A stretch of DNA of 41,089 nt from a virus. The DNA lies in IMG/VR virus record IMGVR_UViG_3300048927_000355, positions 1 to 41,089 of that record. One strand, written 5' to 3'. Positions 8,182-14,149 of this stretch are shown here, in pieces (within the stretch, counting starts at the first letter, position 1; each line of letters starts with the position of its first letter). Both the position numbers and the translations under genes were made by a program. Below the pieces are notes generated by a model. It saw nothing but the letters and a program-made list of their open reading frames with translations. It searched no databases and was not told the origin of the DNA.

Positions 8182-8330
8182 TGGCTACATGCCGTAGCTG
8201 CGGAGGCAGTGGACGACAGTCGATCCAGTGCGAGCGACGGCACTCCTCGGACCGGGTCTGTCCCAAGTGCGGGAACACGGGCCGGATCTCCTATCCGTGC
8301 GTCGAGTGCTCAGGCTCGGGGCACTCCTGA
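8181..8330 (+). CDS. Zinc-domain array gene 2
   Basis: The product has 49 residues: CRSCGGSG, CERRH (a C/H pair in place of a Cys pair), CPKCGNTG and CVECSGSG. The second site is the degenerate one. Start and stop are both one-base overlaps (TGATG), so translation should be coupled along the array. Confidence 0.75.
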   Translation: MATCRSCGGSGRQSIQCERRHSSDRVCPKCGNTGRISYPCVECSGSGHS

Positions 8331-8479
8331 TGGCGGCCACGTGCGGCCGGTGTCTGGGTACCGGCAAAGAGATGGTGGTCTGTTACAAGTGCAACGGCTC
8401 CGGCAAGAACTGCGGAGCCTGTGAGCACGGGTTCCGGGTCCGGATCTGCGATCGGTGCGGCGGGACGGGGCAGCGATGA
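8330..8479 (+). CDS. Zinc-domain array gene 3
   Basis: The product has 49 residues: CGRCLGTG, CYKCNGSG, CGAC and CDRCGGTG, with all four pairs intact. The third pair lacks the GxG, as in genes 1 and 4. It overlaps the next gene by ATGA. Confidence 0.75.
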   Translation: MAATCGRCLGTGKEMVVCYKCNGSGKNCGACEHGFRVRICDRCGGTGQR

Positions 8480-8622
8480 AGGACAACCCGTGCGGCCGGT
8501 GCTCCGGCGTCGGCAAAGAGTGGATCCGGTGCGGTGACTGTGACGGCAAGGGGTGTCAGCACTGTGTCCTGGGTTACAGGACGATGATTTGCTCGCTGTG
8601 CACCGGGACCGGGAGGCACTGA
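8476..8622 (+). CDS. Zinc-domain array gene 4
   Basis: The product has 48 residues: CGRCSGVG, CGDCDGKG, CQHC and CSLCTGTG. It is closest in layout to gene 3 (same KE-W/M spacing between pairs 1 and 2), so these two probably share a recent ancestor. One-base overlap with the next start. Confidence 0.75.
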   Translation: MKDNPCGRCSGVGKEWIRCGDCDGKGCQHCVLGYRTMICSLCTGTGRH

Positions 8623-8819
8623 TGACGGGCCGGAGAAGACCACGGCCGAGCGGGCCGCGCGGAACGTGCCGGGGCTGTGGTGGCGATGGGTTCCGTGCAC
8701 TGACTTGCCAGCTCTGCCACGGCAAGGGGTGCAAATCGGGCAACGAGTGCCGGGCGGGCCGGGTCAACGTGGCCTGCAACGTGTGCCTGGGAACCGGCCG
8801 GGACGGAGAGGACCGGTGA
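8622..8819 (+). CDS. Zinc-domain array gene 5, with basic N-terminal extension
   Basis: The product has 65 residues. A basic leader (MTGRRRPRPSGPRG) precedes CRGCGGDG, CQLCHGKG, a C-x5-C pair (CKSGNEC) and CNVCLGTG. The leader could bind nucleic acid. It overlaps the next gene by GTGA. Confidence 0.75.
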   Translation: MTGRRRPRPSGPRGTCRGCGGDGFRALTCQLCHGKGCKSGNECRAGRVNVACNVCLGTGRDGEDR

Positions 8820-9001
8820 GCCCGGACGCGCGGACCAAGCCGTGCCGGACCTGCGGAGCCAGCGGTTATATCTGGTACACCTGCTCGACCTGTACCGGCA
8901 CGGGGCTGGTCAGCGGGAGAAACTGCAAAGTCTGTTTCGGCAACGGTGGGCGTAACGGCAATTGCTTCACCTGCGGTGGACGGGGAGAGGTTGAACGATG
9001 A
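8816..9001 (+). CDS. Zinc-domain array gene 6
   Basis: The product has 61 residues: CRTCGASG, CSTCTGTG, CKVCFGNG and CFTCGGRG, all four with the full CxxCxGxG or near it. Start GTG 8816; ATGA overlap with the next gene. Confidence 0.75.
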   Translation: MSPDARTKPCRTCGASGYIWYTCSTCTGTGLVSGRNCKVCFGNGGRNGNCFTCGGRGEVER

Positions 9002-9156
9002 AGACCAAGAACGTGTGTCAGGTCTGCGGTGGTCAGGGCCGGATCTGGCTCAACTGCCAGATGCGCTGTGGCGGCAAGAGGGATTGCATCGTCTGCTCCG
9101 GGATGGGCAAGGTCTACACGACGTGTACCAAGTGCAAGGGGTCGGGCTACTCATGA
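8998..9156 (+). CDS. Zinc-domain array gene 7
   Basis: The product has 52 residues: CQVCGGQG, a C-x3-C pair (CQMRC), CIVCSGMG and CTKCKGSG. From here on the second pair has three residues between the cysteines, a change shared with genes 8 and 9, so 7-9 form a subgroup. Confidence 0.75.
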   Translation: MKTKNVCQVCGGQGRIWLNCQMRCGGKRDCIVCSGMGKVYTTCTKCKGSGYS

Positions 9157-9320
9157 GCGGCAATCGCAAACCGGATCCGTGCCGCAGGTGCCAGGGCCGG
9201 GGAACCGTCGATGCCCGGTGCACCCAGAACTGCGGGCGCGATCGCAAGTGCCCGGTATGTCGGGGCAGCGGGCACACCTTGGTCACATGCACGTCGTGCT
9301 GGGGAAGGGGGAATCTGTGA
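9153..9320 (+). CDS. Zinc-domain array gene 8
   Basis: The product has 55 residues: CRRCQGRG, CTQNC, CPVCRGSG and CTSCWGRG. It shares a 45-bp identical segment (9195-9239) with gene 9 (9362-9406) and most of the rest, pointing to a recent tandem duplication. ATGA start, GTGA end overlap. Confidence 0.75.
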   Translation: MSGNRKPDPCRRCQGRGTVDARCTQNCGRDRKCPVCRGSGHTLVTCTSCWGRGNL

Positions 9321-9406
9321 GCAGGCCGAAGGACGTTCCCGCGCAGTGCCCGATGTGCCACGGCCGGGGAACCGTCGATGCCCGGTGCACCCAGAACTGC
9401 GGGCGC
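9195..9406 (+). repeat. Tandem duplication within the zinc-domain array
   Basis: Two 45-bp identical segments, 9195-9239 and 9362-9406, 167 bp apart, each encoding RGTVDARCTQNCGR. The flanks are similar but diverged. Confidence 0.8.
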
Positions 9407-9487
9407 AACCGTAAGTGCGGCCAGTGCGGTGGCAGCGGGCACACCCTGGTCACGTGCACCCGGTGCTGGGGGAGTGGGGTCAAATGA
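9317..9487 (+). CDS. Zinc-domain array gene 9
   Basis: The product has 56 residues: CPMCHGRG, CTQNC, CGQCGGSG and CTRCWGSG. Start GTG 9317; the stop overlaps the MuF start by ATGA, tying the array to head-protein translation. Confidence 0.75.
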   Translation: MSRPKDVPAQCPMCHGRGTVDARCTQNCGRNRKCGQCGGSGHTLVTCTRCWGSGVK

Positions 9488-11121
9488 CCGAGCCGGTCTG
9501 GAACGGCCGGGGCCGCGATCCGTGGCTCCCCCAGCGCCTGGAGGCACGGCTGGAGATCGCGACGATAGAGCGGCAGGTCCGTGCCGCTGTCTGGGCCGCG
9601 CTCTCCGATTGGCTGGTCCAGACCGCCCGGCGCGTCCTGAGAGGGACGACCGAGGTCCCGGCCCCGGATGCGATCTGGGCGCGCGTGCCCGCCTGGCGCG
9701 AGGCCGTGGAGCTCATTCTGAACGGCGAGATCCTGAAGGCGCTCGGTGTGGCGTTCGAGCGGATCCTGGGGCCGGGCTCCGGCTGGGAAGGCCGGGAGTT
9801 CACCACGAACTACCTGGCCGAGGTGCGCAACCGGATGGTCCGGATCCCGGACGAGGTGTTCGACCTGGTGGCCGGGCAGATCTCTCAGGGGGTCAACCTG
9901 GGTGACTCGATCCCTGAGCTGGCCATGCGAGTTGACAATGTCCTGTCAACGACCAAGTCGGAGCGCTGGCGCAACCGGGCTGTGGTCGTGGCCCGGACCG
10001 AGGCTATCGGTGCGATGAACGCCGGTCGGCTGGAAGCGTTCAAGATCGTGGCCGAGGACGAGGACGGCCCGATGGAGAAGCTGTGGCTGGCCACCGAGGA
10101 CAGCCGGACCCGGGAGACACATCAGGAGGCTGACGGGCAACGGGTCGCTCTCGCTTCCCCGTTCTCGGTCGGCCTGGCCCAGCTCCAGTTTCCGGGCGAC
10201 CCGAGTGGTCCTCCCCAGGAAGTGATCCAGTGCGTGATCGAGTCAACGAAGGTCGCGTGGCCTAGGCAAGCGTTGTACGGGTCTACCCGCCGACGCCATT
10301 ACGGCCCGCTGGTCCAGCTCATCACGGCTGAAGGGCACGACCTCACCGTCACCCCGAATCACCCGGTACTCACCCCCACCGGGTATATCCCGGCTGGTTT
10401 GCTGAGCAAAGGTCAGGACGTCCTGGCCACCCCGGAGCCCCCATCCCCAGAGGTACACAACGCTCCATTCTGCGTCGAGGAGATTCACAGTGCGCTGAGC
10501 CAAGCGGGGGAGTCTGAGCGGGTGATGGGCAGCCGAATGGATTTCCACGGCGACGGTTCCCCCGATGACGAAGTCGAGATTGTAAGCGCCAACGGCGACC
10601 TGACTCGATACGTCAACCCCCGTGGATTCAGCGAGCGCTTGAAAACGGGCTTCGTCCGGCTGGAGGACCGAACGCGTCCTCTGTCTGGTTTGAGCAATTC
10701 CGTGGTTACGCTGACTCCAGTCCCCGGTGGGCCGGACGACATGTTTACGGGCCGCCTCGTTGGCCTGAGCGGTGAGGGCGCGCCGGTCGGCGGGGGAGAG
10801 ACGGGCGAGGCGCAAGCGGTTCGCTTCGCTTCCGCTCCGGACCTCCAGGTTGAGGGCGATCAAGTGCCGGACGATGGTCGGACGGCTGAGTCCGATTTCC
10901 CGGCTCATCTTCAGTACGCTCTGGCCAGCGGCATGGCGGTAACGAAGATCGTCGATGTCAATAGGCTTTCGGGCAACCACTGGGTATACAACCTTTCCAC
11001 CTCAGACCATTGGTTCACCGGCAATGGTATCGCATTGCACAACTGTCGGTGCACGATGCTCCTCGTGGAACCCGGAGAAGACGTGGACCTGAGCAACCGC
11101 CAGATGCGCCGCAACCGGTAG
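9484..11121 (+). CDS. MuF-like minor head protein containing an intein
   Basis: The full product has 545 residues; ATG 9484 overlaps the previous stop (ATGA). The host (extein) part is about 274 residues and ends in the conserved MuF motif: TEDSRTRETHQEADGQ, then PGDPSGPP, then CRCTMLL. MuF proteins are a few copies per head, next to the portal, and act in head morphogenesis or ejection. The intein, residues 250-520, splits the motif right before CRC, so splicing is needed to restore it. An operator-like repeat lies at 9932-9949. The next gene is the capsid protease. Confidence 0.9.
   Translation: MTEPVWNGRGRDPWLPQRLEARLEIATIERQVRAAVWAALSDWLVQTARRVLRGTTEVPAPDAIWARVPAWREAVELILNGEILKALGVAFERILGPGSGWEGREFTTNYLAEVRNRMVRIPDEVFDLVAGQISQGVNLGDSIPELAMRVDNVLSTTKSERWRNRAVVVARTEAIGAMNAGRLEAFKIVAEDEDGPMEKLWLATEDSRTRETHQEADGQRVALASPFSVGLAQLQFPGDPSGPPQEVIQCVIESTKVAWPRQALYGSTRRRHYGPLVQLITAEGHDLTVTPNHPVLTPTGYIPAGLLSKGQDVLATPEPPSPEVHNAPFCVEEIHSALSQAGESERVMGSRMDFHGDGSPDDEVEIVSANGDLTRYVNPRGFSERLKTGFVRLEDRTRPLSGLSNSVVTLTPVPGGPDDMFTGRLVGLSGEGAPVGGGETGEAQAVRFASAPDLQVEGDQVPDDGRTAESDFPAHLQYALASGMAVTKIVDVNRLSGNHWVYNLSTSDHWFTGNGIALHNCRCTMLLVEPGEDVDLSNRQMRRNR
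9932..9949. promoter_or_regulatory. Operator-like inverted repeat inside the MuF gene, perfect copy
   Basis: TTGAC AATGTCCT GTCAA, in the N-terminal extein coding region. Confidence 0.65.
10231..11043 (+). mobile_element. Intein coding region (271 residues) in the MuF gene
   Basis: It starts at Cys (TGC 10231) and ends at His-Asn (AAC 11043), followed by Cys +1 (TGT 11044). Block A CVIESTKVAWPRQALYG, block B LTVTPNHPVLT with Thr and His three apart, and C-terminal blocks VYNLSTSDHWF and GIALHN are all present, so the splicing (Hint) domain should be active. Between them about 160 residues contain RMDFHGDG, a motif I associate with phage Hint proteins. No LAGLIDADG or HNH endonuclease is read in this sense; instead the opposite strand carries one. 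GC at third positions falls here compared with the neighbours, which fits transfer or double coding. Confidence 0.9.
10243..10980 (-). CDS. Putative homing endonuclease encoded antisense within the intein
   Basis: The product has 245 residues. GTG 10980 is preceded on the reverse strand by GAGGTGGAAAGG, about 11 bases away. A helix-turn-helix (about residues 8-45, KMSREIGLSRPTIVRHL) and a basic linker precede a nuclease-like segment (about 110-180): AYNLDFVIGGTVAVEIHSAAHH and then SVVYLWGWG. The Asp136 ... Glu146-x-His148 arrangement with flanking hydrophobic strands resembles the Vsr/DUF559-like PD-(D/E)xK fold, also used by the EDxHD homing endonucleases. The whole gene lies inside the intein, start in block F/G and stop in block A. 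That position implies it spreads the intein. Confidence 0.75.
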   Translation of the reverse strand: MVARKPIDIDDLRYRHAAGQSVLKMSREIGLSRPTIVRHLIALNLEVRSGSEANRLRLARLSPADRRALTAQANEAARKHVVRPTGDWSQRNHGIAQTRQRTRSVLQPDEARFQALAESTGVDVSSQVAVGAYNLDFVIGGTVAVEIHSAAHHPLRLPRLAQRTVNLLDAEWSVVYLWGWGLRGGQDVLTFAQQTSRDIPGGGEYRVIRGDGEVVPFSRDELDQRAVMASAGRPVQRLPRPRDLR

Positions 11122-12776: not shown

Positions 12777-12986
12777 TCAGGCCGGGAATGCGATGGCGTG
12801 GGCCTGATCGATCAGGGTCCGGGCCAGGTCGTACTCCCCGTTGTTGTGGGCGACATCAGCCTCGGCGATCTTGATCTGGGCCGCGATCCATCCTTCATCG
12901 CTGGCGTGGTCCTGGATCGAGAAAGACACGCTGTTCAGGTACTTGGCGCTGGCTCGGCGGGCGAGAAGTTCCTTGTTTGTCATCAT
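12777..12986 (-). CDS. Hypothetical protein, leaderless, reverse strand
   Basis: The product has 69 residues, starting MMTNKELLARRASAKYLNS, all helical in appearance (EADVAHNNGEYDLARTLIDQAHAIA). ATG 12986 is 7 bases after the -10 box TATCGT of its promoter; no Shine-Dalgarno. Family not recognised. Confidence 0.65.
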   Translation of the reverse strand: MMTNKELLARRASAKYLNSVSFSIQDHASDEGWIAAQIKIAEADVAHNNGEYDLARTLIDQAHAIAFPA

Positions 12987-12993
12987 GCTCAGA

Positions 12994-13022
12994 ACGATAC
13001 AGGCGTGACTGTGAAGTGTCAA
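12994..13022 (-). promoter_or_regulatory. Sigma70-type promoter with operator over the -35 box
   Basis: On the reverse strand: TTGACA (13017-13022), 17-base spacer, TATCGT (12994-12999). Drives 12777-12986. Confidence 0.8.
13005..13022. promoter_or_regulatory. Operator-like inverted repeat, one mismatch
   Basis: GTGAC TGTGAAGT GTCAA, overlapping the -35 box of the reverse promoter and 45 bp from the divergent forward gene at 13067. Confidence 0.65.
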
Positions 13023-13066
13023 CCTCGCAGTTTCCCGGGGAGCGTCATTCGAGTAACCTGACAGCC

Positions 13067-14149
13067 ATGACTATTTCCCGCAAGATCGTGGCGTCTCTCG
13101 CCGCGTTCGCGCTGGCCGGTGCCGTGCTGTCGGCCCCCGCTAGCGCTGCTGTCCCGGCCGTGAAGGACCCGGCCATCCTGGCGGGCAAGAACGCCGACCC
13201 GTACAAGGGCTCGCCCGTCATCAGCAAGAGCACCGGCAAGATGACCGCCGATCTCGGCTCCAAGATCACGGCCAAGTCGGCTTGTGGCGTCTGTCGTCAG
13301 TACGGTGGGGCCTACCAGTTCGTTGGCACCGGCACGGCGGGCACCGGCGCGACCTCGGCCAAGGTCTCGACCAGCCAGCACAATCCGTACCTGAACGCGG
13401 CTAACGGCCACAGCCTCTCGGAGATCTCGGCCCAGGGCTTCTCGACCAGCGGCGCGGATGACAACATCGTGGAGATCGGCTGGCGCAACCCGTCGGCCAC
13501 TACCGGCAACGCCGGTTGCTCCAGCTCGACCAACCCGTGCCTGTTCCTCTACGCCTGGGTCAAGGGTATCGGCCAGGGCTACGGCCCGACCTCCCCGTAC
13601 TACGTCGACAACCCGGGCGAGTCGGTCAACAACGGCACGCCGCTGGCCATCACGGCCGGTGGGGCCAGCCCGACCGTGTTCTATGACTACGGCGCGCGGT
13701 ACATGGCCACCCCGCCGAGCTGGTGCACGACGACGCCGGGCATCGGCGCGTGGGTCATGAGCCAGGCCAACGCCGGTGTCTCGCGGGACATCGCCTGCTA
13801 CCTGAGCACGCTGTGGACCAACGCCGGGGAGTCGTTCACCGACATCCACCTGTTCCAGTCGTTCGACGAGATCGCGGACTCCGACACCAACCCGTGCACC
13901 GACATGGGCTCCGGCATCTTCGGCGTGGCCACCACGCCGAGCGCGGCCCAGTGGGTCAAGGGCTACACCCTGACCGGCCCGACCTCTCCGGTCGCGGACT
14001 GGACCACCAGCCATGTCTCGGTGACCCCGGCCGCTGTCACCCCCACGGCGTACCGGATCAACCGCAACTCGCAGACGGAGTACCGGGTCGGCGGCCCGGG
14101 CTTCGACGTGGTCGGCGGCACGGCGACCGGCACGGCGGGCAACTGCTAG
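13067..14149 (+). CDS. Secreted neprosin-like protein
   Basis: The product has 360 residues. A clear signal peptide (ISRKIVASLAAFALAGAVLSAPASA) precedes a domain with GHSLSEI, NIVEIGW, CLFLYAWVKG, a paired-Cys pattern, IACYLSTLW, HLFQSF and CTDMGSGIFG. This order resembles the neprosin (DUF239) domain of actinobacterial secreted proteins, a glutamate-type peptidase family in plants. Leaderless start: TAACCT (13054-13059), ATG 13067. A monocistronic gene with its own promoter and terminator inside the head genes is consistent with acquired cargo. The family assignment is by pattern memory only. Confidence 0.6.
   Translation: MTISRKIVASLAAFALAGAVLSAPASAAVPAVKDPAILAGKNADPYKGSPVISKSTGKMTADLGSKITAKSACGVCRQYGGAYQFVGTGTAGTGATSAKVSTSQHNPYLNAANGHSLSEISAQGFSTSGADDNIVEIGWRNPSATTGNAGCSSSTNPCLFLYAWVKGIGQGYGPTSPYYVDNPGESVNNGTPLAITAGGASPTVFYDYGARYMATPPSWCTTTPGIGAWVMSQANAGVSRDIACYLSTLWTNAGESFTDIHLFQSFDEIADSDTNPCTDMGSGIFGVATTPSAAQWVKGYTLTGPTSPVADWTTSHVSVTPAAVTPTAYRINRNSQTEYRVGGPGFDVVGGTATGTAGNC

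Follow-up and report, generated by a model that had tools for sequence, protein, structure and literature searches.

The window, by which I mean the whole 41,089-nucleotide stretch of viral DNA analysed here (positions 1 to 41,089 of IMG/VR record IMGVR_UViG_3300048927_000355), carries on its plus strand a MuF-like head morphogenesis gene (9484-11121; PF04233, E 5e-12; PHROG 2468, E 5e-43) that is interrupted by an intein. The N-extein (9484-10230, plus) and the C-extein (11044-11121, plus) flank an element of 271 amino acids (10231-11043, plus) that begins with C1, ends in HN and is followed by C+1. The junctions read EVIQ^C...LHN^CRC, and MuF relatives that have no intein (L004-L006) read straight through the same point as EVIQ-CRC or TIN-CRC. 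The original prediction, made from the letters of the window alone, held that the splicing blocks are complete and that no endonuclease is encoded in the intein's own sense, and both claims stand. Block B, GHDLTVTPNHPVL, contains the TxxH motif (10333-10371, plus), whose T41 and H44 are invariant in 59 inteins. Block F has the core HWVYNL (10978-10995, plus), and block G, NGIALHN (11023-11043, plus), supplies the invariant N271. C1, T41xxH44, HN and C+1 are thus all present. Matches to PF14890, TIGR01445 and TIGR01443 fall below their cutoffs, and the KlbA profile matches at E 1e-11. In the structural model the Hint ends are predicted at pLDDT 90-97, and a fold search pairs them with Mtu RecA and other inteins (probability 1.00, E about 1e-3). 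The middle, residues 123-207 (10597-10851, plus), is predicted to be disordered in the sense frame, with pLDDT below 50 nearly throughout. Judged by motifs and model, the element is an intein with a Hint fold; autocatalytic splicing itself is inferred. The MuF-intein frame is uninterrupted, which rules out a split intein or fractured gene. An intron was also considered and rejected, as was an endonuclease in frame with the intein, the nuclease gene being antisense in register 0.

That gene lies wholly within the intein on the minus strand (10243-10980). It encodes 245 amino acids, starts with GTG, stops with TGA and is called a predicted helix-turn-helix plus Vsr-like homing endonuclease on the strength of shared layout, selection and fold. 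A Shine-Dalgarno-like GAGGTGGAAAGG (10992-11003, minus), a motif found also in relatives, ends 11 nt before the GTG; this spacing is that of the window's subgroup, most relatives having a shorter one. Residues 9-42 form a helix-turn-helix (10855-10956, minus; PF13551, E 0.018; three helices with high pLDDT), and residues 105-180 the nuclease core (10441-10668, minus), recognised by its invariant residues and by profile matches to 3r3p and 3hrl. The invariant residues are E110 (10651-10653), Y133, N134, D136 (10573-10575) and E146 (10543-10545), all on the minus strand. The C-terminal tail, residues 198-245 (10246-10389, minus), lies opposite blocks A-B. The gene, its Shine-Dalgarno-like sequence, the helix-turn-helix and the nuclease-like DFVIG...VAVEIHS segment had all been predicted, and all are confirmed. 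Antisense residue r is opposite intein residue 251-r, so that the gene runs from just past the first residues of the intein to the block F histidine, and both strands are coding over about 90% of the element. The overlap is not with spacer alone: it covers block B and extends into blocks A and F, and the complement of the block F core provides the antisense start codon and the end of the Shine-Dalgarno sequence.

The window by itself gives little help in deciding whether such a frame is a gene. Its length proves nothing alone, because at 67% GC the window holds 19 minus-strand ORFs of at least 245 amino acids. Position-specific GC in the window singles out neither strand, avoidance of TTA, CTA and TCA at this one locus is not significant (none seen, 2.1 expected), and a promoter scan of the window found no sigma-70-like promoter near the antisense gene. 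A scan of viral contigs with the single antisense protein gave no match, and phmmer with the same single sequence against PDB gave only chance matches; a profile was needed. Homologues of the protein are found in PHROG 5536 (E 3e-5) and the MTES_1575 nuclease (E 0.002). What lifts the frame above chance is this homology together with the comparative tests described below.

Profile searches match the antisense protein to I-Bth0305I (3r3p, E 2.6e-6), to the endonuclease-like protein 3hrl and to the two-HTH protein 2lvs. A Foldseek search of PDB also puts 3r3p first, at a modest E of 0.013 and probability 1.00, and a domain search finds HTH_7 in 17 of 25 relatives. The original prediction would have fallen had profile searches found no resemblance to a nuclease or helix-turn-helix; they found both. 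The model has a mean pLDDT of 84.5, mostly about 90-98 in the helix-turn-helix and nuclease core, and the five core residues named above are invariant in 64 of 64 antisense proteins. By fold and by its acidic core E...D...E, the protein is classed as a PD-(D/E)xK nuclease of the Vsr / I-Bth0305I type, cleavage being inferred. Its agreement with the strict EDxHD signature is less clear, judged without an alignment to the original family: the histidine is not conserved, occupying position 148 in only 14 of the 64. H153, present in 38 of the 64, might replace the EDxHD histidine. According to the two models, the folded parts of the proteins partly alternate along the DNA, because disordered stretches (antisense residues 218-238, which face the block A-B strands, and the intein middle) oppose ordered ones. 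The nuclease strands are nevertheless opposite an ordered stretch of the intein. The intein frame has a conserved DFHGDG that lies opposite VAVE of the antisense protein, and it is best read, by inference, as a shadow of that motif.

How general is the arrangement? With the antisense protein as query, tblastn found matches in 127 phage records and one plasmid record, with Gordonia phages at 50% identity over 98%. When the first 24 loci were read in their annotated context, the match was antisense inside a head gene or another intein-bearing gene in 23, the exception being Acinetobacter phage P1068. No annotation in the records inspected names the antisense product as an endonuclease. Further loci came from subfamily-alignment scans of IMG/VR and five genome assemblies, among them Chloroflexota, Acidimicrobiaceae, Rhizobium and Atlantibacter; an alignment of 25 relatives was too diverse for a scan of the collection. 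Counting the window, a relative lies antisense to a fully open intein frame in 175 of 176 loci, which hold 126 distinct antisense proteins, and the register across open loci is always 0, codon opposite codon. Two of the scans relied on a pattern lying opposite block B, which biases them towards nested copies; tblastn and three other scans, made without such a pattern, agree with them. Inteins of the class keep C1, TxxH, the terminal N and C+1, and come in two lengths, near 270 and near 320 amino acids, the longer fitting an extra N-terminal HTH. Two inteins of about 221-227 amino acids (L050 and L052) begin with Ala instead of Cys and have weaker endonuclease matches; they possibly represent another intein class or decaying copies. 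On these counts the antisense layout is a widespread class and not a peculiarity of the window's intein.

The boundaries of the antisense genes are as regular as their register. A block F resembling H(x)VYNL can be recognised in 106 of the 126 distinct copies, and in these the complement of its His codon is the antisense start, ATG in 92 and GTG in 14. A Shine-Dalgarno-like motif, which is the complement of the Asn/Asp-Leu codons after that histidine, is found no more than 24 nt upstream of the start in 102 of the 106. Among synonymous codons, the intein frame strongly prefers those whose complements are ATG and GAG: from each locus's own codon usage one expects CAT for the block F His 42 times and CTC for the Leu 21 times, and one sees them 90 and 85 times. 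These choices are silent in the intein and therefore point to translation of the antisense gene, whose start codon and Shine-Dalgarno sequence are, by sequence comparison, themselves under selection. At the other end, 118 of 124 copies have the antisense stop within the intein, at a depth of 1-27 codons; the remainder are mostly copies in which the first residue of the intein could not be placed with confidence.

Substitutions tell which frame is being preserved. Single changes were counted in 26 non-overlapping pairs, with the N-extein as control. Changes silent in the antisense frame outnumber those silent in the intein frame by 933 to 449, and in the extein control the numbers are 103 and 720 (Fisher p 1.6e-150; 25 of the 26 pairs point the same way and the other is tied). 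Changes that are antisense-silent but replace an intein residue occur at 2.15 times expectation (0.39 times in the N-extein), and those that are intein-silent but replace an antisense residue at 0.96 times (2.67 times in the N-extein). The dominance of the antisense frame is strongest in the middle and weaker towards blocks A and B. The sense frame is constrained as well. TTA, CTA and TCA, which place stops in the intein frame, are wholly absent from 125 antisense genes, where 589 would be expected, although an open sense frame was a condition of entry, one met by 175 of the 176 loci. Even in AT-rich phages near 40% GC, all of the expected instances are avoided. The original prediction of coding on both strands would have been refuted had stops broken the reverse frame of related inteins at the rate of chance. 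Instead that frame is kept open in homologous inteins, as judged by sequence comparison, under purifying selection.

The view that GC-rich coding DNA has thrown up the reverse ORF by chance, and that it is no gene at all, can appeal to the many equally long ORFs of the window and to its missing positional GC signal. It is too much to expect of chance that it should give a conserved protein family with domain matches, purifying selection in the antisense frame, a selected start codon and Shine-Dalgarno sequence, and relatives in AT-rich phages that avoid the three codons. The comparative tests refute this reading, which retains next to no credence, and the ORF at 10243-10980 is, on comparative grounds, a real gene and not an artefact of GC content. 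The opposite view, that only the antisense gene matters while the sense frame is merely open and splicing has been lost, draws on the predicted disorder of the sense middle and on the faster evolution of the sense frame. It is very improbable given the retention of C1, TxxH, the terminal N and C+1, Hint ends that are well predicted and match solved inteins, and the complete avoidance of stop-making codons; moreover, an interrupted head-assembly gene should need an intact product. Slightly less remote, though still improbable, is that the class is real and the window's copy dead. The window starts its gene with GTG rather than ATG, and no promoter-like site was found, but the catalytic residues, start, Shine-Dalgarno sequence and stop are all intact, and between the window and L003 antisense-silent changes are in excess, 40 to 24, as against 6 to 26 in the extein.

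The gene may also encode a real nuclease whose role is other than homing, such as control of the head operon, or cutting or excluding the DNA of co-infecting phage. In mixed infection a nuclease of the homing type can be advantageous, activity has not been shown, and the HTH alone would also suit a regulator. Of the alternatives this is the one I would dismiss least readily, unlikely as it remains: the gene is confined to the intein in 118 of 124 copies, it has followed the intein to new sites and into further host genes, its closest solved fold is that of a homing endonuclease, and its active-site residues are invariant. Exclusion and homing can, in any case, coexist.

The evidence for movement is as follows. 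Intein-minus alleles at the exact site are found in close relatives: L004-L006 relative to the window and, in Salmonella Jerseyviruses, ER5, whose MuF gene lacks exactly 816 nt that LSPA1 has, the flanks being 87-90% identical. Inteins with an antisense endonuclease occupy several MuF sites (NCRC, RTST^C and WVC^TIDGKTR) and are found also in PF06152 minor capsid proteins. The genes that host three others (L049, L099 and L101) have no Pfam match outside the intein. The nuclease gene is carried within the element, to judge from its stop inside the intein (118 of 124) and its start at block F. In Acinetobacter phages P1068, IME285 and BUCT629 a relative of the endonuclease is instead free-standing and adjoins the head gene; two such copies, beside inteinless MuF genes, are at L024:2833-3723 and L181:455-1345. 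The P1068 copy falls within a clade of nested copies (FastTree local support 0.999), from which the free-standing copies are inferred to derive. In P1068, where MuF is inteinless, the frame opposite the endonuclease gene has 14 stops: the endonuclease frame has been kept and the opposite frame has decayed, as expected if the gene works alone.

I propose that the element is a mobile intein with a homing endonuclease gene wholly antisense within it, a reading to which I assign a probability of roughly 0.85, with cleavage, homing, splicing and antisense transcription all inferred. The gene would be transcribed opposite to the head operon, and translation of the transcript would begin at block F. 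The HTH would bind, and the nuclease would cut, the uninterrupted MuF junction of an intein-minus allele at the intein insertion site. Recombinational repair would then copy the intein, with the gene nested in it, into the cut allele, and splicing of the intein out of MuF at the protein level would render the insertion harmless to the head protein. The protein families involved are the basis for inferring transcription, cutting, repair and splicing.

Canonical homing inteins have a LAGLIDADG or HNH endonuclease domain in frame. The elements described here share with them the Hint splicing domain, an endonuclease inside the element and the existence of intein-plus and intein-minus alleles, but the endonuclease is a separate protein from the antisense strand, and of the Vsr/PD-(D/E)xK type. 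I-Bth0305I, the best PDB match by structure, shares the nuclease fold; it is, however, encoded by an intron and not antisense in an intein, and identity is only about 15-17% over the aligned part. The EDxHD endonucleases of "fractured genes", reportedly described by Dassa and colleagues in 2009 as free-standing genes between the halves of split inteins, are likewise Vsr-like nucleases linked to inteins, but here the intein is unbroken and the strand complementary to it carries the gene. A 2025 preprint by Gosselin, Arsenault and Gogarten is said to concern actinobacteriophage inteins of "non-canonical architecture"; it may cover the Gordonia MuF inteins and have priority for some cases. None of the literature matches examined reports an intein with an antisense endonuclease, the search being incomplete. 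In prokaryotes, long pairs of genes on opposite strands, each with a selected product, are rare and a matter of dispute.

An out-of-frame HNH insertion in the ShiLan phage methylase (Arsenault et al. 2025, PMC11855218) is similar in that the insert, besides being read through in frame with its host gene, conceals a frame for an endonuclease. It is on the same strand and without a splicing domain, and the opposite strand, the Vsr-like nuclease and the Hint blocks rule out a gene of that type here. Group I introns of rDNA carry His-Cys homing endonuclease genes antisense to the host element (PMC9548176), but these introns are spliced as RNA and lie in ribosomal DNA, so that the sense strand there need not code for protein.

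On balance, the elements probably belong to a widespread class of mobile intein that is distinct and has not been described before. In this class, two functional proteins would be encoded on opposite strands over about 90% of the length, block F would serve also as ribosome-binding site and start of the antisense gene, and the unit would pass as a whole from site to site and from one host gene to another. I make this claim with less assurance than that of homing. The layout, which has been overlooked, pairs intein and endonuclease by another route, neither fused nor adjoining. It lets the endonuclease be expressed independently of the head protein, and neither partner is easily lost while the other stays. 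With more than 100 distinct natural examples, the co-evolution of two proteins on one stretch of DNA becomes measurable, and since relatives occur in phages of Salmonella, Gordonia and Pseudomonas that can be grown in culture, homing is open to direct test.

Some minor observations may be added. In Virus Rctr197k an intein with an antisense endonuclease has its insertion point at the PCxxC motif of a dCMP deaminase, a long way from the head genes (L025:619-2025). The "head protein" profile PHROG 15127 evidently contains intein sequence and therefore matches unrelated intein-bearing proteins such as this deaminase. In the structural region of the window, a 390-aa ORF (12977-14149, plus) has no Pfam match and an N-terminus like a signal peptide. 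Between portal and MuF (8228-9487, plus) lie small cysteine-rich ORFs that resemble the CxxCxGxG zinc region of DnaJ, with weak matches to PF00684; the stretches 9180-9320 and 9357-9487 (plus) look like a recent duplication.
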